DNA of 64,000 bases from Sediminibacterium sp. KACHI17 (GTDB lineage Bacteria > Bacteroidota > Bacteroidia > Chitinophagales > Chitinophagaceae), in contig NZ_AP029612.1 of the NCBI RefSeq assembly GCF_040362915.1, positions 124,001 through 188,000 on the forward strand. Reading direction: 5' to 3'. Position 1 is the first letter of the stretch, and the number at the start of each line of letters is the position of its first letter. The notes beneath the pieces are model-generated. The model worked only from the letters and a program-made list of their open reading frames with translations, did no database searches and had not been told where the DNA came from. Shown here piece after piece: positions 9,001-56,389 of this stretch. Made by a program: the position numbers and the translations under genes.

Positions 9001-12000
9001 AATGCGAACATTAGTAATCTGACTGGTCTGACTAACTTGAGTGTAACCGGTACAGTAGATGCAGGAACTATCAGTACTACTACAGCGAACATCAGCAACC
9101 TGGCTGGCTTAACAAATTTGAGTGTAACAAATACGATCCAGTCAGCAACAGTAAGTGCTACCACTGGTAACTTTACGAATATCAATGCAACCGGCACGAT
9201 CACTGGCGGAACCTTCAGTGGAACTTTGAGTGCAGGTGCACAGAATAGCATTACAAATCTTGCAAACATCAGTGCTATCACAGCAACAAATGCAAGTATC
9301 ACGAATGCGAACATTACGAACCTGACTGGCTTGACTAATTTGAGTGTGACCGGAACAGTAGATGCTGCAACAATGAGTGCAACTACCGGTAACTTCACAA
9401 CAGCGAACATCAGCAATCTAGCTGGCTTAACAAACTTGAGTGTAACGAACACGATCCAGTCAGCGACAGTAAGTGCGACCACTGGTAACTTTACAAATAT
9501 CAATGCAACCGGCACGATCACTGGCGGTACGTTCAGTGGAACTTTAAGTGCAGGAGCTCAGAATAGCATTACAAATCTTGCAAACATCAGTACTATCACA
9601 GCAACAAATGCAAGTATCACGAATGCGAACATTACGAACCTGACTGGCTTGACTAACCTGAGTGTTACCGGAACAGTAGATGCAGCAACAATGAGTGCAA
9701 CTACCGGTAACTTCACTACAGCGAACATCAGCAATCTAGCTGGCTTAACAAACTTGAGTGTAACGAACACAATTCAGTCAGCGACAGTAAGTGCGACCAC
9801 TGGTAACTTTACAAATATCAATGCGACTGGCACGATCACTGGCGGAACCTTCAGTGGAACTTTGAGTGCAGGTGCACAGAATAGCATTACAAATCTTGCA
9901 AACATCAGTGCTATCACAGCAACAAATGCAAGTATCACGAATGCGAACATTACGAACCTGACTGGCTTGACTAATTTGAGTGTGACCGGAACAGTAGATG
10001 CTGCAACAATGAGTGCAACTACCGGTAACTTCACAACAGCGAATATCAGCAACTTGGCTGGTCTGACTAACCTAAGTGTAACGAACACAATCCAGTCAGC
10101 GACAGTAAGTGCTACTACAGGTAACTTTACAAATATCAATGCAACAGGTACGATCACTGGTGGAAGCTTCAGCGGAACTTTAGAAGCGAGTGCACAGAAT
10201 AGCATCACCAGTCTGGCGAACGTAACCGGTCTGACAGCAACAAATGCAAGCATCACGAATGCGAACATTAGTAACCTGACTGGTCTGACTAACTTGAGTG
10301 TAACAGGAACTGTAGATGCAGGAACAATCAGTGCTACTACAGCGAACATCAGCAACTTGGCTGGCTTGACTAACTTGAGCGTAACGAACACGATCCAGTC
10401 AGCAACAGTAAGTGCTACCACTGGTAACTTTACGAATATCAATGCAACCGGCACGATCACTGGCGGAACGTTCAGTGGAACTTTGAGTGCAGGTGCACAG
10501 AATAGCATTACAAATCTTGCAAACATCAGTGCTATCACAGCAACAAATGCAAGCATCACGAATGCGAACATTACGAATCTGACTGGTCTGACTAACTTGA
10601 GTGTAACCGGAACAGTAGATGCAGGAACGATCAGTGCTACTACAGCGAACATCAGCAACCTGGCTGGCTTGACTAACTTGAGCGTAACGAACACGATTCA
10701 GTCAGCAACAGTAAGTGCGACCACAGGTAACTTTACAAATATCAATGCAACAGGTACGATCACTGGAGGAACGTTCAGTGGAACTTTAAGTGCAGGTGCG
10801 CAGAATAGCATTACAAATCTTGCAAACATCAGTGCTATCACGGCAACGAATGCAAGCATCACGAATGCGAACATTACGAACCTGACAGGTCTGACTAACC
10901 TGAGTGTGACCGGTACTGTAGATGCAGCAACAATGAGTGCAACTACCGGTAACTTCACTACAGCGAACATCAGCAACCTGGCTGGCTTAACAAATTTGAG
11001 CGTAACAAATACGATCCAGTCAGCAACAGTAAGTGCGACCACTGGTAACTTTACAAATATCAATGCAACCGGCACGATCACTGGCGGAACGTTCAGTGGA
11101 ACTTTGAGTGCAGGTGCACAGAATAGCATTACAAATCTTGCAAACATCAGTGCTATCACAGCAACAAATGCAAGTATCACGAATGCGAACATTACGAACC
11201 TGACAGGTCTGACTAACTTGAGTGTAACAGGAACTGTAGATGCGTCAACAATGAGCGCAACTACTGGTAACTTCACTACAGCGAATATCAGCAACTTGGC
11301 TGGTCTGACTAACCTAAGTGTAACGAACACGATCCAGTCAGCAACTGTAAGTGCGACGACTGGTAACTTCACGAATATCAACACAACAGGAACGATCACT
11401 GGTGGCAGCTTCAGTGGAACTTTAGAAGCAAGTGCACAGAACAGCATCACCAGTCTGGCAAACGTAACTGGTCTGACAGCAACAAATGCAAGCATCACAA
11501 ATGCGAACATTACGAACCTGACTGGTCTAACTAACTTAAGTGTAACAGGAACAGTAGATGCAGCAACAATGAGTGCAACGACTGGTAACTTTACTACAGC
11601 GAACATCAGCAACTTGGCTGGTCTTACGAACTTGAGCGTAACGAACACGATCCAGTCAGCAACAGTAAGTGCTACCACTGGTAACTTTACAAATATCAAT
11701 GCAACCGGCACGATCACTGGAGGAACGTTCAGTGGAGCTTTAAGTGCAGGTGCGCAGAATAGCATTACAAATCTTGCAAACATCAGTGCTATCACGGCAA
11801 CGAATGCAAGCATCACGAATGCGAACATTAGTAATCTGACTGGTCTGACTAACTTGAGTGTAACCGGAACAGTAGATGCAGGAACTATCAGTGCTACTAC
11901 AGCGAACATCAGCAACCTGGCTGGCTTAACAAATTTGAGTGTAACAAATACGATCCAGTCAGCAACAGTAAGTGCTACTACTGGTAACTTTACAAATATC

Positions 12001-13240
12001 AATGCAACAGGCACGATCACTGGAGGAACGTTCAGTGGAACTTTAAGTGCAGGTGCGCAGAATAGCATTACAAATCTTGCAAACATCAGTGCTATCACGG
12101 CAACGAATGCAAGCATCACGAATGCGAACATTACGAACCTGACAGGTCTGACTAATTTCAGTGTGACCGGAACAGTAGATGCTGCAACAATGAGTGCCAC
12201 TACCGGTAACTTCACTATAGCGAACATCAGCAACTTGGCTGGTCTGACTAACCTAAGTGTAACGAACACAATCCAGTCAGCAACAGTAAGTACGACCACT
12301 GGTAACTTTACGAATATCAATGCAACCGGCACGATCACTGGCGGAACCTTCAGTGGAACTTTGAGCGCAGGTGCACAAAATAGCATTACAAATCTTGCAA
12401 ACATCAGTGCTATCACAGCAACAAATGCAAGTATCACGAATGCGAACATTACGAACCTGACTGGCTTGACTAACCTGAGTGTTACCGGAACAGTAGATGC
12501 AGCAACAATGAGTGCCACTACCGGTAACTTCACTACAGCGAACATCAGCAACCTTGCTGGACTGACTAACCTAAGTGTAACGAACACAATCCAGTCAGCG
12601 ACAGTAAGTGCTACTACAGGTAACTTTACAAATATCAATGCGACAGGTACGATCACTGGTGGTACGTTCAGTGGAACTTTGAGCGCAGGTGCACAGAATA
12701 GCATTACAAATCTTGCAAACATCAGTGCTATCACAGCAACAAATGCAAGCATCACGAATGCGAACATTACGAACCTGACAGGTCTGACTAATTTGAGTGT
12801 GACCGGAACAGTAGATGCTGCAACAATGAGTGCCACTACCGGTAACTTCACTACAGCGAACATCAGCAACCTTGCTGGACTGACTAACCTAAGTGTAACG
12901 AACACAATCCAGTCAGCGACAGTAAGTGCTACCACTGGTAACTTTACAAATATCAATGCAACCGGCACGATCACTGGTGGAACGTTCAGTGGAACCTTGA
13001 GTGCAGGTGCACAGAACAGCATCACCAGTCTGGCGAATGTAACCGGTCTGACAGCAACAAATGCAAGCATCACGAATGCGAACATTACGAACCTGACAGG
13101 TCTGACTAACTTAAGTGTAACCGGCACAGTAGATGCAGCAACAATGAGTGCCACTACCGGTAACTTCACTACGGCGAACATTAGTAATCTGGCAGGTCTA
13201 ACAAACCTGAGCGTAACAAATGCGATCCAAGCAGCGACCG
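1..13240 (+). repeat. Coding tandem repeat array, units mostly 303 or 318 bp
   Basis: The conserved word encoding TIQSATVS recurs about 41 times, at for example 5652, 5970, 6288, 6606, 6924, 7242 and 7560 (318-bp steps) or 10089, 10392 and 10695 (303-bp steps). A degenerate last copy (NAIQAATGN) is near 13224. Units of 303 bp lack the five-residue segment present in 318-bp units; others reach 336-354 bp through extra words. Many copies are identical over long stretches, which points to recent duplication or gene conversion. The copy number could be wrong if the assembly used short reads. Confidence 0.95.
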
Positions 13241-16200
13241 GTAACTTTACCAACTTGAATGTAACTGGAACCATTACTGGTGGAACCTTCAGCGGTGTTT
13301 TATCTGCCAGCACATTAAATAGTATCACAAGTCTGGCTAATTTATCAACGATAACAGTAACGTCTGCGAGCATTACCAATGCCAATATTACAAACCTGAC
13401 AGGGTTGACTAACCTAAGTGTTACAGGTACTGTACAAGCTGGAACTTTAAGTGCAAGTACAATCAATACCAATGTTATTAATGGTTTAACAGCGCTAACA
13501 GTAAATGGTACTATTCAGGGTACTACTGTAAGTGCTACAACAGCGAACTTGACGAATGCAAATATCACAGGAACTGCTACTGCTAATACAGTAAGCGCAA
13601 CAACTGTGAACGGTAGTACAGGTAACTTTAATAGTATCAATACCACAGGTACCATTACCGCGAATACATTCAGTGGTTCATTGGCGAATCCTTTATCGGT
13701 AGGCTTTGGGTTATTAGCTAATAACCTTACATCAACTACATACAATGGTGGACAAGCGGTAACATTCAGAGCAGATACTATTGCAATGTCAACAAAAGCA
13801 TTTGCAAACTTCCTGTCTGATACTAAATTCAATATAGATGATACTTCTGCCTTTACATCGCGTATCAAAGTATCAGATACAGCGATGATGTTAGGAGGAT
13901 CTATTTATTATCCTGGATTCGCGGGACCTAGTCCGCCAAGAACCGGTTATGCCCGTTTTGATGATGTGGTGAAGTACTATGAACTGAACAGTCTGGTAGA
14001 CGATAACTTCTTGAGGTATGTAGATACAGCTGATATGTTAACAGCTTACAGGCTTAGACTGAATTACCATGAAAGGGATTCTTTCCCAAGTATTCGTAAT
14101 GTCTTGGCAACGCGACCGAGAGAGGGTAATACGGATCTGGTGACACTTGGTACCGTCACGACCGGTACATGGAATGCAACGATCATAGATCCTGTTTATG
14201 GTGGTACAGGTGTGGATAATGGTTTCAATACTATTACTTTGGGTGGTAATATTAATACTGCGGGAAGTTTAACAACAGTAGGTAATAATATCACCTTTAG
14301 GGCAACAGGACCTACTGATGTTACTTTACCGACATCGGGAACAGTGGCAACACTTTCGGGTACGGCAACACTTACAAATAAAACGATCAGTGGTGCATCC
14401 AACACACTTACGAATATTGCAGGTAGCTCATTGTTATCAAACACTGTAGCATTGGGTAATATCCAACAGATCAGTACGGCCAGATTGTTGGGTAGAAGTA
14501 CTGCCGGAACTGGTGATGTTGAACAGATCACCATCGGTACTGGTCTACAATTAGTAGGAGGAGAGTTAAGTGCTACTGGTACTGGAAACGGTACAGTCAC
14601 TTCCATTTCGGTGAGCGGTTCTAATGGAATCGGTGTATCTGGTTCTCCAATCACGACGAGTGGTACCATTACACTTTCATTAGGTGCGATAACACCAAGT
14701 TCTGTAGCTGCTAGCGGAACTGTTACAGGTTCAAACTTGAGTGGAACCAATACAGGTGATGTAACATTGACGGGACAGAATTATTTATCATTGTCTGGAC
14801 AGCAAATCACAGCGAATGCGATCGACCTAAGTGGTACAAATGCTACCGGTACATTAGCTGCGGGAAGATTCCCTGCACTGACTGGTGCGATTACTACTAC
14901 AGCTGGATCCTTAGCAACTACTTTAGCTGACGATGCTGTTACTACCAATAAGATCCTGAACTCAAATGTTACTTTTGGAAAGATTCAAAATATCGCTACC
15001 GCAACACTATTGGGTAGAAATACATCTGGTACTGGAGTGATCGAGGAATTAAGTCCGGCAGTAGCGAAAGCAATGCTTGCATTAAGCAAAACAGATGTTG
15101 GTTTAGGAAACGTAGAAAATACAGCATTATCTACATGGGCAGGTAGCACCAATCTTACTACATTGGGAACTATTGGAACTGGTACTTGGAATGGTGCGGT
15201 AATTAACCCAACCTATGGTGGTACGGGTGTGAACAATGGTTCAAGAACCATCACTTTAGGTGGTAACTTAACGACCAGTGGTGCATTCAATACGACCTTG
15301 ACTGTAACCGGTGCAACCAACGTTACTTTACCTACTACAGGTACTTTATCAACTTTGGCAGGTTCTGAAACACTCACCAATAAAACCATCAGCGGTTCTT
15401 TGAATACATTAACGAATATTGCCACTTCATCTTTAACAGGTACATTGGCGGCAGCTCAATTCCCAACATTGACAGGTGATGTGACTACAAGTGCAGGTAA
15501 CCTTGCCACTACCTTAGCAACGGTGAACAGTAACGTGGGTACATTTGGTAGTGGTTCATTGATTCCTGTAGTTACTGTGAACGGCAAAGGATTGGTGACA
15601 GGTGTAACAACGACAGCTGTAACTGCGGCGGCTGGATCACTGACAGGTTCAACACTTGCCTCTGGTGTAACAGGATCTTCTTTAACATCCGTTGGAACAT
15701 TAACAGGCTTAACTGTAAATGGTACCATCAATCTGAATAATAATAATAATGCCGTTACCAATATCAATACAGGAAGCAGTACCAGTGATGTAACAATCGG
15801 TGGAGGTTCAAATGAAGTAGGTATCGGTGGAGCTCCGGGTGGTTCTTATAAACTGGAAGTATTTGGTAAATTAAAGACCAATGCGATCAATGAAACTTCC
15901 GACATGCGTTATAAGAAAGATATTGTGACCGTTGAAAATGCATTGGATAAAGTAAATGCACTGCGTGGTGTGAATTATCTCTGGAGAACAGATGAATTCC
16001 CGAACCGAGGATTCGATACTTCTAAGCAGTTAGGGTTGATAGCACAAGAAGTAGAAAAGATCGTTCCGGAAGTTGTGAAGACAGATGATAAGGGGTATAA
16101 AACGGTTGAATATTCTAAACTGGTAGCTTTATTGTTGGAGGCAATTAAAGAGCAACAGAAAATCATTGAAAAGCAGAAGACAGATATTACCCTCTTGAAA

Positions 16201-16305
16201 TCTGATGCGGATAGAATTAAGAAGCTGGAAGAGGAGATCGCAGGAATCAAGAAACTGTTGGAAGCTATTAGCAAAGATCCAAAGCCTGCAAAAGGCTCTG
16301 AATAA
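1..16305 (+). CDS. Giant tandem-repeat protein with C-terminal S74 (endosialidase-type) chaperone domain, 5' partial
   Basis: The frame is open from base 1, in the middle of a repeat, so the true start and any signal peptide lie upstream; a TTG at 217 is only an internal codon. The visible part is 5434 residues. Residues 1 to about 4410 are roughly 42 repeats of 101-118 residues, rich in Thr, Ser, Asn, Ala and Gly, with core words such as NTIQSATVSATTGNFTNIN. Residues about 4565-4710 are a unique segment. Then come tail-fibre-like words (GTWNATIIDPVYGGTG, TLTNKTISG), each seen twice. The C-terminus carries a Peptidase_S74 domain with the hallmark SDMRYKKDI (Ser5300, Asp5301 in window numbering) and a terminal Lys/Glu-rich coiled coil. 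In phage fibres S74 domains assist trimerisation and then cut themselves off. A trimeric beta-rich surface fibre or adhesin is inferred; the ligand is unknown. The next gene starts 218 bases downstream on the same strand. Confidence 0.85.
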   Translation, partial: TITGGTFSGTLEASAQNSITNLANVTGLTATNASITNANISNLTGLTNLSVTGTVDAGTISATTANISNLAGLTNLSVTNTIQSATVSATTGNFTNINTTGTITGGSFSGTLEASAQNSITSLANVTGLTATNASITNANISNLTGLTNLSVTGTVDAGTISTTTANISNLAGLTNLSVTNTIQSATVSATTGNFTNINTTGTITGGSFSGTLEASAQNSINNLANINTITATGTISAGTLSATNASITNLTGLNNLSATGTVDAGTISATNANISNLAGLTNLSVTNTIQSATVSATTGNFTNINTTGTITGGSFSGTLEASAQNSINNLANINTITATGTISAGTLSATNASITNLTGLNNLSATGTVDAGTISATNANISNLAGLTNLSVTNTIQSATVSATTGNFTNINTTGTITGGSFSGTLEASAQNSITSLANVTGLTATNASITNANITNLTGLTNLSVTGTVDAGTISATTANISNLAGLTNLSVTNTIQSATVSATTGNFTNINATGTITGGSFSGTLEASAQNSINNLANINTITATGTISAGTLSATNASITNLTGLNNLSATGTVDAATMSATTGNFTTANISNLAGLTNLSVTNTIQSATVSATTGNFTNINATGTITGGTFSGTLEASAQNSITNLANVTGLTATNASITNANISNLTGLTNLSVTGTVDAGTISATTANISNLAGLTNLSVTNTIQSATVSATTGNFTNINTTGTITGGSFSGTLEASAQNSITSLANVTGLTATNASITNANITNLTGLTNLSVTGTVDAATMSATTGNFTTANISNLAGLTNLSVTNTIQSATVSATTGNFTNINSTGTITGGTFSGTLSESTLNSITSLANLTSLTATSANITTANISNATVSGTLTATNANISNLTGLNNLSVTGTVDAGTISATTANISNLAGLTNLSVTNTIQSATVSATTGNFTNINATGTITGGTFSGTLSAGAQNSITNLANVTGLTATNASITNANITNLTGLTNLSVTGTVDAATMSATTGNFTTANISNLAGLTNLSVTNTIQSATVSATTGNFTNINATGTITGGSFSGTLEASAQNSITSLANVTGLTATNASITNANISNLTGLTNLSVTGTVDAGTISATTANISNLAGLTNLSVTNTIQSATVSATTGNFTNINTTGTITGGSFSGTLEASAQNSITSLANVTGLTATNASITNANISNLTGLTNLSVTGTVDAGTISATTANISNLAGLTNLSVTNTIQSATVSATTGNFTNINATGTITGGTFSGTLEASAQNSITSLANVTGLTATNASITNANITNLTGLTNLSVTGTVDAATMSATTGNFTTANISNLAGLTNLSVTNTIQSATVSATTGNFTNINATGTITGGTFSGTLSESTLNSITSLANLTSLTATSANITTANISNATVSGTLTATNANISNLTGLTNLSVTGTVDAGTISATTANISNLAGLTNLSVTNTIQSATVSATTGNFTNINATGTITGGTFSGTLSAGAQNSITNLANVTGLTATNASITNANITNLTGLTNLSVTGTVDASTMSATTGNFTTANISNLAGLTNLSVTNTIQSATVSATTGNFTNINTTGTITGGSFSGTLEASAQNSITSLANVTGLTATNASITNANISNLTGLTNLSVTGTVDAGTISTTTANISNLAGLTNLSVTNTIQSATVSATTGNFTNINATGTITGGSFSGTLEASAQNSINNLANINTITATGTISAGTLSATNASITNLTGLNNLSATGTVDAATMSATTGNFTTANISNLAGLTNLSVTNTIQSATVSATTGNFTNINATGTITGGTFSGTLEASAQNSITNLANVTGLTATNASITNANISNLTGLTNLSVTGTVDAGTISATTANISNLAGLTNLSVTNTIQSATVSATTGNFTNINATGTITGGTFSGTLSAGAQNSITNLANISAITATNASITNANITNLTGLTNLSVTGTVDAATMSATTGNFTTANISNLAGLTNLSVTNTIQSATVSATTGNFTNINATGTITGGTFSGTLSAGAQNSITNLANISAITATNASITNANITNLTGLTNLSVTGTVDAATMSATTGNFTTANISNLVGLTNLSVTNTIQSATVSATTGNFTNINTTGTITGGSFSGTLEASAQNSITSLANVTGLTATNASITNANITNLTGLTNLSVTGTVDAATMSATTGNFTTANISNLAGLTNLSVTNTIQSATVSATTGNFTNINATGTITGGTFSGTLSAGAQNSITNLANISAITATNASITNANITNLTGLTNLSVTGTVDAATMSATTGNFTTANISNLAGLTNLSVTNTIQSATVSATTGNFTNINATGTITGGSFSGTLEASAQNSITNLANISAITATNASITNANITNLTGLTNLSVTGTVDAATMSATTGNFTTANISNLAGLTNLSVTNTIQSATVSATTGNFTNINATGTITGGTFSGTLSAGAQNSITNLANISAITATNASITNANITNLTGLTNLSVTGTVDAATMSATTGNFTTANISNLAGLTNLSVTNTIQSATVSATTGNFTNINATGTITGGTFSGTLSAGAQNSITNLANISAITATNASITNANITNLTGLTNLSVTGTVDAATMSATTGNFTTANISNLAGLTNLSVTNTIQSATVSATTGNFTNINATGTITGGSFSGTLEASAQNSITNLANVTGLTATNASITNANITNLTGLTNLSVTGTVDAATMSATTGNFTTANISNLAGLTNLSVTNTIQSATVSATTGNFTNINATGTITGGTFSGTLSAGAQNSITNLANISAITATNASITNANITNLTGLTNLSVTGTVDAATMSATTGNFTTANISNLAGLTNLSVTNTIQSATVSATTGNFTNINATGTITGGSFSGTLEASAQNSITSLANVTGLTATNASITNANISNLTGLTNLSVTGTVDAATMSATTGNFTTANISNLAGLTNLSVTNTIQSATVSATTGNFTNINATGTITGGTFSGTLSAGAQNSITNLANISAITATNASITNANISNLTGLTNLSVTGTVDAGTISTTTANISNLAGLTNLSVTNTIQSATVSATTGNFTNINATGTITGGTFSGTLSAGAQNSITNLANISAITATNASITNANITNLTGLTNLSVTGTVDAATMSATTGNFTTANISNLAGLTNLSVTNTIQSATVSATTGNFTNINATGTITGGTFSGTLSAGAQNSITNLANISTITATNASITNANITNLTGLTNLSVTGTVDAATMSATTGNFTTANISNLAGLTNLSVTNTIQSATVSATTGNFTNINATGTITGGTFSGTLSAGAQNSITNLANISAITATNASITNANITNLTGLTNLSVTGTVDAATMSATTGNFTTANISNLAGLTNLSVTNTIQSATVSATTGNFTNINATGTITGGSFSGTLEASAQNSITSLANVTGLTATNASITNANISNLTGLTNLSVTGTVDAGTISATTANISNLAGLTNLSVTNTIQSATVSATTGNFTNINATGTITGGTFSGTLSAGAQNSITNLANISAITATNASITNANITNLTGLTNLSVTGTVDAGTISATTANISNLAGLTNLSVTNTIQSATVSATTGNFTNINATGTITGGTFSGTLSAGAQNSITNLANISAITATNASITNANITNLTGLTNLSVTGTVDAATMSATTGNFTTANISNLAGLTNLSVTNTIQSATVSATTGNFTNINATGTITGGTFSGTLSAGAQNSITNLANISAITATNASITNANITNLTGLTNLSVTGTVDASTMSATTGNFTTANISNLAGLTNLSVTNTIQSATVSATTGNFTNINTTGTITGGSFSGTLEASAQNSITSLANVTGLTATNASITNANITNLTGLTNLSVTGTVDAATMSATTGNFTTANISNLAGLTNLSVTNTIQSATVSATTGNFTNINATGTITGGTFSGALSAGAQNSITNLANISAITATNASITNANISNLTGLTNLSVTGTVDAGTISATTANISNLAGLTNLSVTNTIQSATVSATTGNFTNINATGTITGGTFSGTLSAGAQNSITNLANISAITATNASITNANITNLTGLTNFSVTGTVDAATMSATTGNFTIANISNLAGLTNLSVTNTIQSATVSTTTGNFTNINATGTITGGTFSGTLSAGAQNSITNLANISAITATNASITNANITNLTGLTNLSVTGTVDAATMSATTGNFTTANISNLAGLTNLSVTNTIQSATVSATTGNFTNINATGTITGGTFSGTLSAGAQNSITNLANISAITATNASITNANITNLTGLTNLSVTGTVDAATMSATTGNFTTANISNLAGLTNLSVTNTIQSATVSATTGNFTNINATGTITGGTFSGTLSAGAQNSITSLANVTGLTATNASITNANITNLTGLTNLSVTGTVDAATMSATTGNFTTANISNLAGLTNLSVTNAIQAATGNFTNLNVTGTITGGTFSGVLSASTLNSITSLANLSTITVTSASITNANITNLTGLTNLSVTGTVQAGTLSASTINTNVINGLTALTVNGTIQGTTVSATTANLTNANITGTATANTVSATTVNGSTGNFNSINTTGTITANTFSGSLANPLSVGFGLLANNLTSTTYNGGQAVTFRADTIAMSTKAFANFLSDTKFNIDDTSAFTSRIKVSDTAMMLGGSIYYPGFAGPSPPRTGYARFDDVVKYYELNSLVDDNFLRYVDTADMLTAYRLRLNYHERDSFPSIRNVLATRPREGNTDLVTLGTVTTGTWNATIIDPVYGGTGVDNGFNTITLGGNINTAGSLTTVGNNITFRATGPTDVTLPTSGTVATLSGTATLTNKTISGASNTLTNIAGSSLLSNTVALGNIQQISTARLLGRSTAGTGDVEQITIGTGLQLVGGELSATGTGNGTVTSISVSGSNGIGVSGSPITTSGTITLSLGAITPSSVAASGTVTGSNLSGTNTGDVTLTGQNYLSLSGQQITANAIDLSGTNATGTLAAGRFPALTGAITTTAGSLATTLADDAVTTNKILNSNVTFGKIQNIATATLLGRNTSGTGVIEELSPAVAKAMLALSKTDVGLGNVENTALSTWAGSTNLTTLGTIGTGTWNGAVINPTYGGTGVNNGSRTITLGGNLTTSGAFNTTLTVTGATNVTLPTTGTLSTLAGSETLTNKTISGSLNTLTNIATSSLTGTLAAAQFPTLTGDVTTSAGNLATTLATVNSNVGTFGSGSLIPVVTVNGKGLVTGVTTTAVTAAAGSLTGSTLASGVTGSSLTSVGTLTGLTVNGTINLNNNNNAVTNINTGSSTSDVTIGGGSNEVGIGGAPGGSYKLEVFGKLKTNAINETSDMRYKKDIVTVENALDKVNALRGVNYLWRTDEFPNRGFDTSKQLGLIAQEVEKIVPEVVKTDDKGYKTVEYSKLVALLLEAIKEQQKIIEKQKTDITLLKSDADRIKKLEEEIAGIKKLLEAISKDPKPAKGSE

Positions 16306-42771: not shown

Positions 42772-42786
42772 TAATAGCAAATGGCC

Positions 42787-42824
42787 TATAGTTCATGGCT
42801 TATAGCTATATGCCATGAACTATA
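42787..42824. repeat. Perfect 13-bp hairpin in the rpsE-rpmD gap
   Basis: Arms TATAGTTCATGGC (42787-42799) and GCCATGAACTATA (42812-42824) are perfectly complementary around a 12-nt loop that itself is built of TATAGC words. There is no T-run, so RNA processing or stability is more likely than termination. Confidence 0.8.
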
Positions 42825-42852
42825 AGCTACTAGCTATGTCAATAAAGTAGTT

Positions 42853-50179: not shown

Positions 50180-50608
50180 ATGAGAAAAGTAAGTAACGTA
50201 TTACAACGTAAAGGAAACAGAGTAACCACAGTTCCTCCCGAAATGACAGTGATCGATGCATTGAAACTAATGGCTGAACAGAATATAGGATCAGTAGTGG
50301 TGATGAAGGAGGGAAAATTTGCCGGTATCATGACGGAACGTGACTATTCCCGTAAAGTAATATTGAAAGGGCGTCATTCCAGTGAAACAAAAGTAGGAGA
50401 GATCATGACCACAGATTTTCCGTATGTGGCGATGAATGATACGGTGGAATCTTGCATGCAGTTAATGACTTCTCACCGATTGAGATACTTACCCGTGATT
50501 GAAGATGAACAATTGGTAGGTATTATTTCTATCAATGATCTGGTCACAGAAACGATCTTAACGCAGGCTGAAACGATTAATCAGTTGCAGAGTTATATAC
50601 AGTCCTAG
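50180..50608 (+). CDS. CBS-domain pair protein
   Basis: The 142-residue product is two CBS domains (about 10-65 and 75-135) and nothing else: PEMTVIDALKLMAEQNIGSV and TVESCMQLMTSHRLRYLPVI are the typical strand-helix units. MTERDYSRKVILKGRHSSET follows the first. CBS pairs bind adenosine nucleotides and usually regulate a partner; none is obvious here. Cytoplasmic. Confidence 0.93.
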   Translation: MRKVSNVLQRKGNRVTTVPPEMTVIDALKLMAEQNIGSVVVMKEGKFAGIMTERDYSRKVILKGRHSSETKVGEIMTTDFPYVAMNDTVESCMQLMTSHRLRYLPVIEDEQLVGIISINDLVTETILTQAETINQLQSYIQS

Positions 50609-50646: not shown

Positions 50647-51168
50647 ATGAAAACACTACTTCTATCAATGATAAGTTTATGCTTATTCGCTAGCGCTTAT
50701 TCGCAACAAGGAGTCAATCGTCAAGCTTCAAGCCCTAAGAAAGTTGCACCACGACCTCAACTGAAAACACAAAAACAATACCTAGCTGATGCAAAGGCTT
50801 TCTATTCACTAAGTTTATGTAATGCTGCAAAAGCCTCTTATTCTTTCCTTGGTGTTGATTACCAAGATCAAGATTTAATAAAAAATATTAATGAATGTTT
50901 ATCTAGTAAAGCAAGTCTTGACGAAGCGGAAGATTTTAATCCTGCTGAAGATGAACTTTACACATTATCTATCCCTGCGAATCAGCAGGTCGGGTATGAA
51001 AATGTCGAATTCGGAAATATAGAATTTGCAGCTCAACGTTATCGGAATGCGTTACATTTTTATTTATTATATCTAGTTGATAATTATACAATGCTGCGTA
51101 AGGATAGAGATCTATTAAATAAATTTGAAGAAAAAATTGAATACTGCCTTAGAAAATCGGGTTACTAA
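50647..51168 (+). CDS. Exported protein of unknown function
   Basis: Not recognised. The 173-residue product has a signal peptide (KTLLLSMISLCLFASAYSQ) and a Gln/Pro/Lys-rich linker to about residue 45. The rest is helical, with three Cys and many Tyr, and pattern hints of degenerate TPR (NIEFAAQRYRNALHFYLLYL). It is A+T-rich compared with the upstream housekeeping genes. The next gene, 80 bases downstream on the same strand, also has TPR-like parts, so the two may work together. Confidence 0.7.
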   Translation: MKTLLLSMISLCLFASAYSQQGVNRQASSPKKVAPRPQLKTQKQYLADAKAFYSLSLCNAAKASYSFLGVDYQDQDLIKNINECLSSKASLDEAEDFNPAEDELYTLSIPANQQVGYENVEFGNIEFAAQRYRNALHFYLLYLVDNYTMLRKDRDLLNKFEEKIEYCLRKSGY

Positions 51169-51248
51169 TTTTATGAAAATATGTCTAGTAGCTCATTAAT
51201 GCGTATATGATTTTTAGCAATAAATGAATATAATAAAAGAAATATAGT

Positions 51249-52556
51249 ATGGAGGATTCAATGCAAAAGCAGGCAGGAAATTTAAATAAGTCATTGGTCA
51301 CTCGAATAGAAATTTTTTCAGATAAGGTTGCGGCATACAGAAAAATACTATTGAATTTTTTTGTAATGGTATTGGTACTATACCTGATTGTATTTTTAAT
51401 AGCAACCTCTTTTCAGAAAAAGTTATTGGTATTGCCGGTAGATATTCCGGATAAGCTAAAGAAAGAGGGTTATTCCCCTGAATTCTTTACGCAGAAGATT
51501 GTAGAAAGAATTGAGTTCATTAAAAATAGTGCATCCGATTATTATAGTAACAATGATGTGGAACTAATGATGGAAGATGATAAAATTGAAATAGTTAATA
51601 CATTACTTGATAATACCCCATTAGAAGGATTTAAAAGTATGTTTATCGATTTTGTCAATCGGAATCAGGAAAAAGTGACAGGTAAAGTAAGAGATCTCAA
51701 TGACAGAGTGCAAATTACGTATCGCATTGGAAACAAAACTCCTATTGTTGTTGAAAAGGGCACTACAGATAGTCTTATTTATGCCGCTGCTGAATATATA
51801 ATGGAAGAAATGAATCCTTATTATTTAAGTGCTTATTATTTTAAGACGAAGGAGTTTGATAAGTGCTTAAGTCTAGTACAGAAGCTACTCAATAGCAGCA
51901 ATACTAGGTATAAGTATCTTGCTTTTCATATACGCGGAAATGTTTACATAAGTATGGGAGACCAGTTTTTACACAATAAGGATTCAGTAAATCACTGGTT
52001 AGGCGATGAATACCTGAATTATGCAAAAAATATTTTTGATAGCGCAATTGCCACCAATACTTTTAAATCACCTTGGCTTAGTTATAATAGTATGGGGGCT
52101 GTTTATCACAACAAAAAAGTGTATGACTCAGCAAAAATTTGGTATAAGCGATCTATGTTATCCAATCATGCTGGGGCTAATGCTTTCTATAATTATGGAA
52201 ACATCTTATTGGATGAATATAATGGTAATGAAAAAAAAATGAAATCAAATCCAGATACTGCTGTATTTTACTTCAAAGAAGCCATTAAGCGAAATTCATT
52301 TAATGTAGACTATTATATTGGATTACTGAAAGCGTATGCTTATGCTAAGAATGTAGAACAAGCCAAGGCTTTGTTCTTTAAGTGTAAGGATATGGATCCT
52401 AAGAATTTGAATATTTATTCTTATATGGTTCTTGTGCATCAACCAAAGGACCCATTAATGGCTAATCAATATCAAAATCTTTATTTGCAAAAACTCAAGG
52501 AGATTAGAAACATTGATATATCCACTGATAGTATGGCGCCTAACGCTAAAAACTAA
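51249..52556 (+). CDS. Membrane-anchored TPR protein of unknown function
   Basis: Not recognised as a named family. The 435-residue product has a short cytoplasmic N-terminus and one membrane segment (about residues 33-55). A periplasmic or extracytoplasmic region follows with an alpha/beta part (60-195) and TPR-like helices (about 195-415; for example YLAFHIRGNVYISMGDQFLH and NAFYNYGNILLDEYNGNEKK). A single-pass protein with TPRs suggests a scaffold. The gene is markedly A+T-rich and starts an accessory segment that continues into the repeat-flanked island. Confidence 0.72.
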   Translation: MEDSMQKQAGNLNKSLVTRIEIFSDKVAAYRKILLNFFVMVLVLYLIVFLIATSFQKKLLVLPVDIPDKLKKEGYSPEFFTQKIVERIEFIKNSASDYYSNNDVELMMEDDKIEIVNTLLDNTPLEGFKSMFIDFVNRNQEKVTGKVRDLNDRVQITYRIGNKTPIVVEKGTTDSLIYAAAEYIMEEMNPYYLSAYYFKTKEFDKCLSLVQKLLNSSNTRYKYLAFHIRGNVYISMGDQFLHNKDSVNHWLGDEYLNYAKNIFDSAIATNTFKSPWLSYNSMGAVYHNKKVYDSAKIWYKRSMLSNHAGANAFYNYGNILLDEYNGNEKKMKSNPDTAVFYFKEAIKRNSFNVDYYIGLLKAYAYAKNVEQAKALFFKCKDMDPKNLNIYSYMVLVHQPKDPLMANQYQNLYLQKLKEIRNIDISTDSMAPNAKN

Positions 52557-52924
52557 TCACAGTCTTCATTTAGATAATTTGATATTTTGTAAATAGTATT
52601 AAAAACTTTTGCTTTTATCCCTTTTATTATATCATCAATTGATCAAAGTACAAACCAATGCACAGCGTTAACACGCAACACTGAACCGTCATCCTGAGGA
52701 GCATTGATCACGCAAGTGATCATCTGCGACGAAGGATCTGATCATTATGAGGATTTTGATGGTTGTAGGAGCGATGTAAAATGAAATGTTACACCTTAGC
52801 TGTGTAACACGAAGAGTCCCCTCGTACCTCTGGAGACATCTGTGTGGAACTTTTTATTTATCAGACTCTACGGAGAAGGAAAGAGTGTCTCTATATCATT
52901 TGCACTAATCAGCTTCTTAAATAT
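52557..52924. other. 368-bp gap holding direct repeat copy A
   Basis: Apart from the ~215-bp repeat at 52664-52879 nothing recognisable is present. The small membrane-protein gene on the other strand ends at 52925. Confidence 0.6.
52664..52879. repeat. Direct repeat copy A (~215 bp, structured)
   Basis: It is about 85% identical to 54034-54248, in the same orientation, 1370 bp away. It contains the common word pair GTCATCCTGAGG ... CGAAGGATCT, the stem TGATCAC-GCAA-GTGATCA, the stem GTTACAC/GTGTAAC and the far-apart arms AGAGTC/GACTCT. Three hairpins in fixed order suggest a structured RNA or a non-autonomous element. No coding potential is visible. Confidence 0.85.
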
Positions 52925-53206
52925 TTAGATAAGCCATAAGAAGCTTACCAACAATGGACAAATACATAGAAAAATAAAAAGTAGATAATCTTGTTGATAA
53001 GCGGGCTGAGTTGTTAAATATTTACCCAGCCATACACAAGTATAAATGAAAGCCCAAATGGGGGTGATGATGATAAATGCCACCGGTGAAAGATCACAGA
53101 CAGGTTCCCCGGCCGTTTTAAACATATAATAGATCATATAGATCCACCACAGCAGATAGGGTAAAAGAAAAAAGCTGGAAACTTTATGTCGATAAAAAAG
53201 CGACAT
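52925..53206 (-). CDS. Small membrane protein, unknown function
   Basis: The 93-residue product has three likely membrane segments (SSFFLLPYLLWWIYMIYYMF, VAFIIITPIWAFIYTCVWLG and LLFIFLCICPLLVSFLWL). I do not recognise a family. It lies between the two direct repeats, on the same strand as the toxin-antitoxin pair, 59 bases after the toxin stop. It could be a third gene of that module or an unrelated passenger. Confidence 0.6.
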   Translation of the reverse strand: MSLFYRHKVSSFFLLPYLLWWIYMIYYMFKTAGEPVCDLSPVAFIIITPIWAFIYTCVWLGKYLTTQPAYQQDYLLFIFLCICPLLVSFLWLI

Positions 53207-53265
53207 GGTTCTTTTTCTATTGATGCTGAAAACTTGAAAAAGTAACCTTGTTGCTTTATAGAATT

Positions 53266-53601
53266 TTACAGATCTAGTACGATCAGTAAATTCTTTTTTA
53301 GTTGTTGGATTTGATCTTGGTTGAGTTTACCGATTCTTTGTATCAATCTTTTATTATCAATAGCCCTAATTTGATCAATAAGCACATCACTCAGTTGATC
53401 CAGTTGCGATTTTTTTAAATGCACACGAAGAATATGTATATCAGGTTGAATATTGGTGGTAATAGGACAAACGATTGTTGATAGATGAGTATCATTCAAT
53501 AGATCTGTTTGTATAATTACAACAGGTCTGGTTTTACCTGGTTCTGTTCCTTTACCCGGATTTAGATTGGCTAGCCATATATCATATTGCTTAATCTTCA
53601 T
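53266..53601 (-). CDS. PemK/MazF-family toxin (endoribonuclease)
   Basis: The 111-residue product starts at ATG 53601 (MKIKQYDIWLANLNPG); the frame extends upstream but the family begins here. GTEPGKTRPVVII carries the catalytic Arg (Arg25), and PITT gives the second active residue (Thr48). DQIRAIDNKRL near residues 76-86 is typical. MazF toxins cut mRNA or rRNA at short sequences and so stop growth. The start overlaps the end of the antitoxin gene by 11 bases, which implies coupled translation. Confidence 0.93.
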   Translation of the reverse strand: MKIKQYDIWLANLNPGKGTEPGKTRPVVIIQTDLLNDTHLSTIVCPITTNIQPDIHILRVHLKKSQLDQLSDVLIDQIRAIDNKRLIQRIGKLNQDQIQQLKKNLLIVLDL

Positions 53602-53821
53602 CAGCCAGTTTTTCAAACTCACGTAAGATGTTCATAGACTCTTTTCTGCCAAGCGCAGATTCTTTTGCCAATGTATGCTTCAATAACTTTCTGTGATGAT
53701 AACGATTGTAGAGATCTACCGCTTCGTTGATATAGCGATTACGAGCTATATTCAATTTTGCAGTGATAGCTTCTGCTTCTTCGAATGTTTGATCATCCAG
53801 TTTGAGTGATAAAGTTTTCAT
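53591..53821 (-). CDS. Ribbon-helix-helix antitoxin partner of MazF
   Basis: The 76-residue product (start ATG 53821; an upstream extension to 53908 is not family-like) begins KTLSLKLDDQTFEEAEAITA, a beta strand followed by a helix, then NIARNRYINEAVDLYNRYH, as in MetJ/Arc/CopG DNA-binding proteins. The acidic C-terminus (EFEKLADED) would block the toxin. It therefore is an RHH antitoxin and not an AbrB-type MazE. It should repress its own operon; repeated motifs stand directly upstream. Confidence 0.88.
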   Translation of the reverse strand: MKTLSLKLDDQTFEEAEAITAKLNIARNRYINEAVDLYNRYHHRKLLKHTLAKESALGRKESMNILREFEKLADED

Positions 53822-53835
53822 ACCCTTACTTTTTA

Positions 53836-53864
53836 TAAAGGTATATACTTTTGGTGTATACTTT
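53836..53864 (-). promoter_or_regulatory. Candidate promoter and operator of the toxin-antitoxin pair
   Basis: On the + strand GGTATATACTTT (53840-53851) and GGTGTATACTTT (53853-53864) are direct repeats 13 bp apart. On the gene strand TACCTTTA (53843-53836) matches seven of eight positions of the -7 element. Operator repeats overlapping the promoter fit autoregulation by an RHH dimer. Confidence 0.55.
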
Positions 53865-54033
53865 GAAAAAGGTATGTGTTGCATAGTATTGATTGTAACT
53901 CGAAACAATCAGTAGAGCCGAAAATAGTGATACACCCCATCGTATTTCCCGCAAATTTGATGATTAGTTGGTTGAATATGTTTCAAGTGAAGTGATAAGA
54001 AAGATCACCCGGCTGTGCTGGCGAAGCCAACGC

Positions 54034-54248
54034 AGCATTAACACACAACACTGAACCGTCATCCTGAGGAGCATTGATCACGCAAGTGATCATCTGCGAC
54101 GAAGGATCTGATCATTATGGTTGTTTTATGGCAATAGGAGAGAAGCAAAACTAAATGTTACACCTTAGCTGTGTAAAACGCAGAGTCCTCTCGTACCTCT
54201 GGAGACATCCGCGAAGAACTTTTTATTTGTAAGACTCTGCGGGGAAGA
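54034..54248. repeat. Direct repeat copy B (~215 bp, structured)
   Basis: Second copy of the element at 52664. The central part from AACACTGAACCGTC to GGATCTGATCATTATG is identical to copy A; the flanks differ by substitutions and a small indel. The outer arms CGCAGAGTC / GACTCTGCG pair over nine bases here, better than in copy A. Confidence 0.85.
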
Positions 54249-54457
54249 AAAGGTGAAGTCCTTTTGCGTCTTGGGAAGATTCAAAAAGTTTTTTTATCGA
54301 TTAAACCTGCTGATACAGGGTTGTAAAAGCGCTTGGATTAATAGATATAATAAAATATGTACATGTATCTAGGATTAATTCCTCTAAAAGCGGCTTTTTT
54401 CTGTTCGTAGCCTCAATTTTCCACCCCTAAAACCACCGATCTACCGTACTTTTTCCC

Positions 54458-54499: not shown

Positions 54500-56389
54500 A
54501 TGAACATTTTTCGTAAACAATTAAACGCAGATGCTCAGGACAACGCGGGTACACCCGAAGTTGCTACTGCGACAACAAAAGCACCTGAAGCAGCGCCGGT
54601 TGTAGAAACTGCGCATGATGATTTTGACTGGAGCATTGACAAGCGTAATGTGAGTCACTATGCTGAAGCTGAAAGAGTGAAGTATGACAAAGTGTATGAT
54701 AACACTTTCGTACAGATCGAAGACGGCGAGATCGTTCGTGGTGGTGTGGTTGCCCTCACCAAAACAGATGTAGTAGTTAACATCGGTTTCAAAAGCGATG
54801 GTCTGGTTTCACTGAACGAATTCCGTGATGTACAGGGATTGAAAGTAGGTGACGAAGTAGAAGTAATGGTTGTTGAGAAAGAAGACCGCAATGGTAATCT
54901 GCACCTCAGCCGTAAGTCTGCCCGCATCTTCCGTGCATGGGAGCGTATCGTGGAAGTACACAAGACTGGTGAAGTAATCACCGGTACTGTTACCAGCAAA
55001 ACAAAAGGTGGTTTGATCGTTGATGTATTCGGTATGGAAACTTTCTTACCGGGTTCTCAAATCGACGTGAAGCCTGTAACTGATTACGATCAGTTCGTAG
55101 GTAAGACCATGGAATTTAAAGTTGTGAAGATCAACGAAGCAATTAAGAATGCTGTAGTATCTCACAAAGCACTGATCGAAAGCGATATCGAAGCACAGCG
55201 TGCAGAGATCATGAGCAAACTCGAAAAAGGTCAGGTATTGGAAGGTGTGGTGAAAAACATCACAGATTTCGGTGCTTTCATGGACCTTGGTGGTTTGGAT
55301 GGCCTGTTGTACATCACCGATATTTCATGGGGTCGCATCTCTCACCCAAGCGAAGTGGTGAAGATGGATCAGAAATTACAAGTGGTGGTATTGGATTTCG
55401 ACGACGACAAGAAGCGTATCAGCTTAGGTCTGAAGCAACTGACGCCACATCCATGGGATGTGCTGCCTGAAGGTTTATCTGAAGGTTCAGTTGTGAAAGG
55501 TAAAGTAGTAAATATTGAAGATTACGGTGCATTCCTGGAAATTCAGCCGGGTGTTGAAGGACTGGTACACGTATCTGAGATCACTTGGGCAAATACTCCG
55601 ATCAACGCGAAGGAATTCTTCAAGTTGGGCGATGAGTACGAAGCAAAAGTGGTAACCTTAGATAAAGATGCTCGTAAGATGAGTCTGAGCATCAAACAAA
55701 TGAGCGAAGACCCATGGAGCACAATCGAGAACAAGTTCCCTGAAAACAGTAAGCACAAAGGATTGGTGAAAAACATCACTCCATATGGCGTATTCGTTGA
55801 ATTGGAGCCAGGTATCGGTGGTATGATCCACATCAGCGATCTGAGCTGGTTGAAGCGTTTCAATCACCCAACTGATTATACCAAAGTTGGTGAGCACATC
55901 GATATCATCATCCTCAGCATCGATAAAGAAAACCGCAAACTGCAATTAGGACACAAACAGTTGGAAGAAGATCCTTGGAATGCCCTGGAAGAAACTTTCG
56001 CTGTGGGTAGTCAGCACGAAGGAACTGTTACCCGTAAGGATGACAAAGGTGCCCTCGTACAATTGCCTTATGGTTTAGAAGGTTTTGCACCTAACCGTCA
56101 CCTGAACAAGGAAGATGGCACACAGGTGAAAGCTGATGAAACTGCACAATTCATCGTGATCGAATTCGATCGTAATGAAAAACGCATCGTTCTGAGCCAT
56201 GCCCGTATCTGGGAGAAAGTAGTAGCTGAAGAAAAGGAAATTGCCAAGAAAGAAGCGAAAGCGGAAGCTGACAGTACCAAGAAAGCAGTGAAGAATATCC
56301 AGAGCAAGGTAGAAAAAGCAACCCTGGGTGACCTGGGAGCTTTAGCTGAGATCAAAGCTAAACTGAAGGAAGGAGAAGGCGAGAACTAA
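54500..56389 (+). CDS. rpsA: 30S ribosomal protein S1
   Basis: The 629-residue product contains six S1 (OB-fold) domains at about 70-135, 158-220, 245-312, 330-397, 415-482 and 500-565; the third to fifth have the clearest GxVxxITDFGAFxxL pattern. The N-terminal 40 residues are Ala/Glu/Pro-rich, and a charged Lys/Glu tail follows residue 580. S1 unfolds and recruits mRNA to the 30S subunit, which matters in a phylum that uses few Shine-Dalgarno sites. Confidence 0.97.
   Translation: MNIFRKQLNADAQDNAGTPEVATATTKAPEAAPVVETAHDDFDWSIDKRNVSHYAEAERVKYDKVYDNTFVQIEDGEIVRGGVVALTKTDVVVNIGFKSDGLVSLNEFRDVQGLKVGDEVEVMVVEKEDRNGNLHLSRKSARIFRAWERIVEVHKTGEVITGTVTSKTKGGLIVDVFGMETFLPGSQIDVKPVTDYDQFVGKTMEFKVVKINEAIKNAVVSHKALIESDIEAQRAEIMSKLEKGQVLEGVVKNITDFGAFMDLGGLDGLLYITDISWGRISHPSEVVKMDQKLQVVVLDFDDDKKRISLGLKQLTPHPWDVLPEGLSEGSVVKGKVVNIEDYGAFLEIQPGVEGLVHVSEITWANTPINAKEFFKLGDEYEAKVVTLDKDARKMSLSIKQMSEDPWSTIENKFPENSKHKGLVKNITPYGVFVELEPGIGGMIHISDLSWLKRFNHPTDYTKVGEHIDIIILSIDKENRKLQLGHKQLEEDPWNALEETFAVGSQHEGTVTRKDDKGALVQLPYGLEGFAPNRHLNKEDGTQVKADETAQFIVIEFDRNEKRIVLSHARIWEKVVAEEKEIAKKEAKAEADSTKKAVKNIQSKVEKATLGDLGALAEIKAKLKEGEGEN

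Follow-up and report, generated by a model that had tools for sequence, protein, structure and literature searches.

The two direct repeats that enclose a toxin-antitoxin module just upstream of rpsA are REP-derived repeats at a gene-turnover hotspot. Neither of them is a single element or a single RNA: in both, members of two dispersed families of palindromes, here called R and S, are joined. The explanation that we put forward, and that we consider probable, is that these composite intergenic repeats derive from two REP-type palindrome families, that S was spread by a RAYT, and that gene modules may be shuffled at the repeats.

The window, that is, the whole stretch of 64,000 nucleotides that was analysed, is G000:C1:124001-188000, where G000 is the genome of Sediminibacterium sp. 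KACHI17, a single contig of 3,136,465 bases. The relevant features are given below by position in the window; "the three other islands" are the corresponding stretches, downstream of the same CBS-domain gene, in three other species.

50180..50608, plus strand: CBS-domain gene, left border of the variable interval.
50647..52556, plus strand: accessory genes p173 and a TPR-like 435-aa protein, found among the three other islands only in G102.
52661..52882, plus strand: repeat A, a composite of R, linker, Q and S, lying where the TPR gene and the membrane ORF converge.
52687..52739, plus strand: R palindrome in A, CGTC-tagged and REP-like, CGTCATCC...GAAGGATCT.
52787..52809, no strand assigned: Q hairpin in A, GTTACAC/GTGTAAC.
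52798..52881, minus strand: S element in A, a RAYT-associated REP-like hairpin (89.2 bits) whose 3' end overlaps Q.
52925..53206, minus strand: small membrane-like ORF of 93 aa, with a homologue among the three other islands only in Gen4.
53266..53622, minus strand: MazF/PemK-family toxin of 118 aa (PF02452, E 2e-29, 102.4 bits).
53591..53821, minus strand: antitoxin, probably ribbon-helix-helix, 76 codons, overlapping mazF.
53941..54250, plus strand: repeat B, made of a left part, the P palindrome, R, linker, Q and S.
53941..54003, plus strand: left part of B, about 60 nt, common to copies in three other species.
54012..54036, no strand assigned: P palindrome in the left part of B, GCTGTGCTGGC-GAA-GCCAACGCAGC, absent from A.
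54057..54109, plus strand: R palindrome in B, identical to R of A.
54158..54176, no strand assigned: Q hairpin in B, weaker.
54167..54250, minus strand: S element in B (89.5 bits), whose 3' end overlaps Q.
54500..56389, plus strand: rpsA (30S ribosomal protein S1), right border of the variable interval.

The initial annotation described two copies of a repeat, at 52664-52879 and 54034-54248, about 85% identical. Both are confirmed: they point the same way and share 88% identity across about 215 nt, a similarity far above chance (E 1.4e-72 when A is compared by BLAST with its own genome). Copy B, which sits between the divergent antitoxin and rpsA genes, is longer than first stated: it runs over about 310 nt, 53941-54250, including a left part that A lacks. 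The three hairpins announced for each copy do fold in A and in B, Q more weakly in B; beyond hairpin formation, the idea that the repeat is an RNA receives no support. Folding of the whole length is unremarkable, with z-scores of -1.52 and -1.69 on the plus strand and of -0.96 and -0.92 on the minus strand, and a scan of the window against Rfam gives nothing at the gathering scores.

The annotation also called for a search for further copies, and the genome holds six other partial ones. The matches to A fall in eight places: A and B themselves, four that cover the right part or S only, and two that cover R only, about 50 nt in the left half of A. Since the matches split into R-only and S-only places, the repeat is pieced together from dispersed families. 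Two earlier statements must be divided accordingly. The proposal of a non-autonomous element fits the parts, R and S being REP-type palindromes and S going with a RAYT undetected in this genome. The finding that was to count against a link with gene gain or loss, a repeat widespread in unrelated places, holds for the parts; the long composite, in the searches made, is found only at the gene-turnover locus.

A and B look unlike a recent duplication, since they do not form a supported pair in a tree of 12 repeat copies, none of whose nine forks is well supported. The left part contains a recurring open stretch of about 19 codons (HRISRKFDEQLVDFVSSEV-like), at 53938-53994 in the window and in the copies of L111, L112 and L148. 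We considered this left part as a possible 3' end of a lost gene, but the copy in the window and one of those in G102 contain stops, and no parent gene for the stretch appears in the loci examined. Named records with the same repeats belong to Sediminibacterium and to one Chitinophagaceae MAG.

Elsewhere in the window, an open frame of at least 5434 aa occupies 1-16305 on the plus strand and runs off the window start; its repeats of about 100 aa are adhesin-like by eye, and it comprises 42 DNA units that, among the rows shown, are spaced by 303-351 nt and at least 66% alike. An inverted repeat at 42774-42837 consists of two adjoining 32-nt arms, 84% complementary.

The family R is a palindrome of about 52 nt with the layout (C/T)GTC-ATCCTGAGGAGC, a variable stem, and TGCGACGAAGGAT. 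The loci of this and related genomes provide 43 distinct copies, of which 25 are aligned (alignment A9): the tag is CGTC or TGTC in 23 of the 25 rows, and the other two rows are clipped. Covariance analysis of the stems, as the annotation had suggested, favours the pairing: 95.8% of the named pairs form, and there are 38 double-change cells versus 11.1 in shuffled alignments. One of the five measures goes the other way, further pair types numbering 9 against a shuffled mean of 11.4, which is lower than or equal to all 500 shuffles. In the own genome, the exact R pattern occurs only in A and B. R has no match in 23 RAYT or ordinary Y1 loci, and none of the 43 distinct copies listed comes from loci L152-L203. 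According to the available part of Di Nocera et al. (2013, PMC3733652), CGTC-tagged REPs have terminal CGTC, TGTC or CCTC, a stem of 8-9 bp and a loop of 4-5 nt, are reported in Bacteroidetes, and do not flank transposase genes. The stem of R is longer than 8-9 bp and has interior loops, and we therefore call R REP-like rather than a member of that class.

The family S is about 85 nt long, with a core CGCA-NNN-GTCTCC around a conserved loop and a conserved U-G pair in the stem; the minus strand folds better, slightly or strongly, in six of seven own-genome copies. A covariance model finds S in 19 of 147 genomes, with six copies in the own genome, counts that are lower bounds because 30 candidates per genome were scored under strict filters. 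The copies are dispersed, and occur singly, in inverted pairs and in tandem arrays. Here too the stems covary: over 59 distinct rows, 93.9% of the cells are paired and 22 are double-change cells, versus 6.4 when shuffled, and slid versions of the structure pair 36-60% of the cells, all figures that lean towards the structure because the alignment was fitted to it. No GT[AG]G tetranucleotide, the mark of canonical REPs, is seen by eye at the hairpin foot in alignment A5, so that we do not file S as a canonical REP. Three pattern-scan matches, L077-L079, were discarded as chance: two of the three are from Bifidobacterium, and the surroundings of the two inspected are not S-like. In S. goheungense, a tandem array of S units (L117:7551-8756), spaced by 223-239 nt and alternating in orientation, lies beside a RAYT gene.

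In S. goheungense, 86 nt separate an S array from a gene of 234 aa, whose product has the motifs MPNHVH and YIHNNP. All nine members of the family of this gene match NF047646 at E <= 0.001 (best 1.4e-22; member 1 scores 68.6 bits, below the curated 80), and six of the nine match PF01797 at E <= 0.01 (member 1 scores 21.3 bits, below 23). The family matches the RAYT structure PDB 4er8 by sequence, with E 3.4e-4, and a fold search from a low-confidence model (mean pLDDT 51) returns IS200/IS605 transposases, the best with E 1.1e-3 and 4er8 with 0.039. The alignment contains YIH-NP and the HUH motif, whose first H is preceded by N or S; the motif WQ is not seen in it.

Close homologues of this RAYT (above 150 bits) are found in 13 of the 147 genomes. 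We fetched 30 loci: 19 close, 8 remote (25-31% identical) and 3 C-terminal fragments. S is present (E <= 0.01) in the flanks, up to 1.5 kb per side, of 17 of the 19 close loci, both misses being in G118; two pairs of close loci overlap, so the distinct places with S are 16 out of 17. The corresponding counts are 0/8 for remote homologues, 1/3 for C-terminal fragments, and 0/70 for control flanks, composed of ordinary Y1 genes (PF01797, 0/12), rpsA (0/29) and other mazF genes (0/29). The S model predates the retrieval of the RAYT loci, although its training set included the places of L174 and L175. At 9 of the 17 loci, as read from the table, S is inverted on both sides of the RAYT gene.

Counting by genome, close RAYTs are present in 8 of the 19 S genomes versus 13 of 147 overall (P 1.5e-5), and ordinary Y1 genes in 16 of 19 versus 35 of 147 (P 2.6e-9), relatedness and genome size being ignored in both cases. 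Since S co-occurs by genome even more with ordinary Y1, only the adjacency of S and RAYT is specific. Judged by this adjacency, S looks like the REP of a diverged RAYT in Sediminibacterium, and is its putative substrate. No RAYT is detected in the own genome at E <= 0.001, and PF01797 likewise has no match, so its six S copies look like orphans; REP sequences that lack a transposase gene are also reported in the accessible part of Quentin et al. (2018, PMC6006769). G047, G082, G114 and G118 have short matches to the last 23-35 RAYT residues, as if the 3' end were repeated with the hairpins. In Gen4, L175 (G101:C57:100610-101239) is a RAYT-matching stretch with inverted S on both sides; it contains a single in-frame stop, which may precede the start codon.

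We now turn to the locus. The joined R+S composite is found in 4 of the 147 genomes: G000, G101 (Gen4), G102 (Desfum bin 7) and G097. G101, G102 and G084 coincide, in contigs and positions, with the records Gen4, Desfum bin 7 and S. goheungense, which were also retrieved as G079, G080 and G081. This search scored only four candidates per genome. In another search, which scored every candidate, matches of at least 150 nt in Gen4 and Desfum bin 7 lie only on the island contigs; the evidence that the composite is restricted to one locus is thinner for G097 and for genomes without a match. BLAST with repeat A has no match in 60 sampled congeners, and has matches in 8 genomes of the full set of 147, the own genome included. 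In all four genomes with the composite, it lies downstream of the same CBS gene, and the interval is closed by rpsA in three of them, the Gen4 contig ending inside or just after a repeat.

The content of the interval differs from one species to the next, the island gene names without a Pfam result being our reading of the translations. From CBS to rpsA, G000 has p173, TPR, A, membrane ORF, mazF, antitoxin and B. G102 has p173, TPR, an alpha/beta-hydrolase gene, mazF, antitoxin, a repeat, DUF6934 and two repeats, after which come NmrA-like and HxlR-like genes, a KilA-N remnant, a repeat and further genes. Gen4 has an Abi_2-like gene, a repeat, a group of several genes that includes a partial repeat, and another partial repeat, followed by a membrane ORF, KilA-N, two repeats, mazF, antitoxin and a repeat. 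G097 has an Abi_2-like gene, a repeat, mazF, antitoxin, a 28-nt scrap of repeat, KilA-N, a repeat and two ORFs. The Abi_2-like genes directly after the CBS gene are at L111:10280-10912 and L148:13079-13714, with a Pfam result for the Gen4 copy only.

Among the 29 congeners with a fetched rpsA locus, the CBS gene is at most 1.5 kb upstream of rpsA in four, and directly beside it, at 224-250 nt, in G041, G046 and G027. These three are more distant, their CBS genes being 65-68% identical, so they exhibit an unoccupied interval rather than a precise excision. The TPR protein, tried as a marker of the empty site, was abandoned: a sample of 60 congeners yields just two matches to it, both partial and weak (E 1e-4).

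The same MazF block has different neighbours in the four species. Gen4 and G097 have the mazF pair and KilA-N in different orders, and the genes that follow one matching repeat are not the same in these two genomes. In all four species, some block ends fall in the composite; in Gen4, the first 14-19 codons of the membrane ORF occur a second time, next to an S end. Overall, 13 of 28 block ends are no more than 30 bp away from a repeat in one genome or the other, compared with 8.3 expected (P 0.044), the ends not being independent. Other junctions are away from repeats, on the mazF-stop side between G000 and G102 and on the rpsA side. Some junctions seem to share short A or T runs, which suggests illegitimate joining and not a fixed site. 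Recombination between the repeats is plausible from these comparisons, because module order and neighbours differ between species, and it may include deletion of the module, as the annotation envisaged.

That the repeats enclose exactly a membrane protein, a toxin and an antitoxin is true of the own genome, and does not extend to its three relatives with the composite. The mazF side in G102 is an alpha/beta-hydrolase gene with no repeat; a KilA-N gene separates the antitoxin from the next full repeat in G097; and repeats and a KilA-N gene stand between mazF and the full membrane ORF in Gen4. The annotation rightly saw no transposase: the three enclosed ORFs have no transposase match in Pfam, NCBIfam or PADLOC at E <= 0.001, and plasmid and phage collections have no match. 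The antitoxin, with its conserved start MKTLSLKL at 53821, has no Pfam match at threshold. It is a probable ribbon-helix-helix (RHH) protein, as predicted from a monomer model of two helices (mean pLDDT 84) whose best fold matches are almost all RHH proteins, at a weak E of 0.69 or worse.

Compared with the window, the MazF product is 91-95% identical and the antitoxin 84-87% identical in the three other islands. MazF homologues are present in 28 of the 61 genomes searched, own included, and an antitoxin homologue is beside many of the fetched loci. At 29 other mazF loci outside the own genome, a sample that excludes the three other islands, S is never found, and blastn of the repeats yields one marginal match, in L020, with E 0.02. 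Since the sampled MazF homologues elsewhere lack S, the repeats are probably not the vehicle of the toxin-antitoxin pair, which seems, from this distribution, to move or be inherited independently of them. We also set aside the repeat as a promoter of the pair, the sampled homologous pairs elsewhere being without it.

The ancestry of the composite and the role of its copies in recombination are what we infer from here on. A diverged RAYT, a single-strand HUH transposase, would have spread S; it persists in relatives, and would have been lost from the own genome or never held there. R would be a CGTC-tagged REP-like palindrome without a known transposase. The composite of R and S with its left part, about 310 nt, would have formed at the CBS-rpsA interval in an ancestor of a small group of Sediminibacterium, and would then have been copied several times within that interval, so as to be found now often at module edges. 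Homologous or microhomology recombination at the repeats may contribute to the gain, loss and reordering of modules, the MazF pair among them. The pair itself would be a passenger, not mobilised by the repeats, and its selfish stability may keep the stretch in place.

It would be natural to see A and B as the ends of a composite, transposon-like unit that brought in the toxin-antitoxin module in one piece, since direct repeats enclose the module in the window. This conjecture is largely refuted, and we regard it as highly unlikely: the enclosed ORFs show no transposase, A lacks the left part of B and does not pair with it in the tree, G102 has a repeat on only one side of the pair, the 29 sampled congener mazF loci are all without S and offer only the marginal match in L020, and plasmids and phages give nothing. 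A transcribed structured RNA, or a regulatory leader or terminator for the flanking genes, would account for covarying hairpins and for the position of A between convergent gene ends. REPs can act as terminators or stabilisers between convergent gene ends. We nevertheless hold this reading to be very unlikely, because no Rfam family matches, folding z-scores remain between -0.92 and -1.69 on either strand, and the same modules also turn up scattered, tandemly arrayed and as inverted pairs; hairpins that a single-strand DNA transposase reads should covary just as much. Scarcely credible, finally, is an integron-like array whose repeats are attC-like sites of a site-specific recombinase: an array of small modules with structured repeats in between evokes it, but the junctions are at different points of S, seemingly at short homologies and at no one fixed point, and the parts are dispersed REP-like families.

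The other alternative keeps the REP-type origin and denies the repeats any role in turnover: selfish repeats and genes would merely gather where the DNA upstream of rpsA tolerates insertions. The enrichment of breakpoints at repeats is marginal, and the DNA before rpsA also varies in the sample of 29 congeners, which has no S there; both observations favour this alternative. It explains less well why the long composite is found only at the CBS-rpsA interval, and why block ends fall in the composite in each of four species, as at the matching repeat of Gen4 and G097; we judge it doubtful, if far from negligible. In the opposite direction, one may wonder whether the composite repeats are docking sites for homologous exchange, making a recombinase-free, integron-like cassette locus beside rpsA. 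This is a speculative extension with rather poor chances; if it is true, strains of Sediminibacterium exchange modules there, toxin-antitoxin and KilA-N ones among others.

The consulted parts of two papers (PMC6006769, PMC3733652) show that REPs, RAYTs and atypical hairpins next to the RAYTs of Bacteroidetes are already known, and the literature searched yields no paper on REPs or RAYTs in Sediminibacterium. As far as these searches show, two things are new: the Sediminibacterium S family together with its RAYT, and the composite repeat at a single gene-turnover locus. S provides a concrete, alignable example of the "atypical structures" reported for Bacteroidetes RAYTs, tied to a diverged RAYT and to one genus, and the CBS-rpsA locus is a place where the idea that REPs shape gene turnover is testable.

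Several known systems can be compared with this one. The toxin-antitoxin pair resembles MazEF-type pairs in its PemK/MazF toxin and small overlapping antitoxin gene upstream, and differs from them in an antitoxin without a Pfam match at threshold, read as RHH from a monomer model. In E. coli, a REPtron locus was replaced by a toxin-antitoxin operon, according to the portion of PMC6006769 available: unlike there, we know of no RAYT gene that ever lay between CBS and rpsA; as there, toxin-antitoxin genes are found where REP sequences lie. Compared with the CGTC-tagged REPs as the available text of PMC3733652 presents them, R is distinguished by its length of about 52 nt, its conserved middle part and its variable inner stem, and shares the CGTC/TGTC tag, the AT at the stem foot in many copies, and the inverted pairs. 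A close parallel to S and its RAYT is TnpA-REP subclass 2.6 of Bacteroidetes, for which the accessible part of Quentin et al. (PMC6006769) reports the motifs NH[LIV]H, WQ and YIH[QN]NP and "atypical secondary structures" that lack GT[AG]G. That part of the text does not describe the S hairpin family, and our RAYT alignment has F-E at the presumed place of WQ; the NHVH HUH motif, YIH-NP, and GTAG-less hairpins that both flank the gene and are repeated in the genome are common to the two systems.
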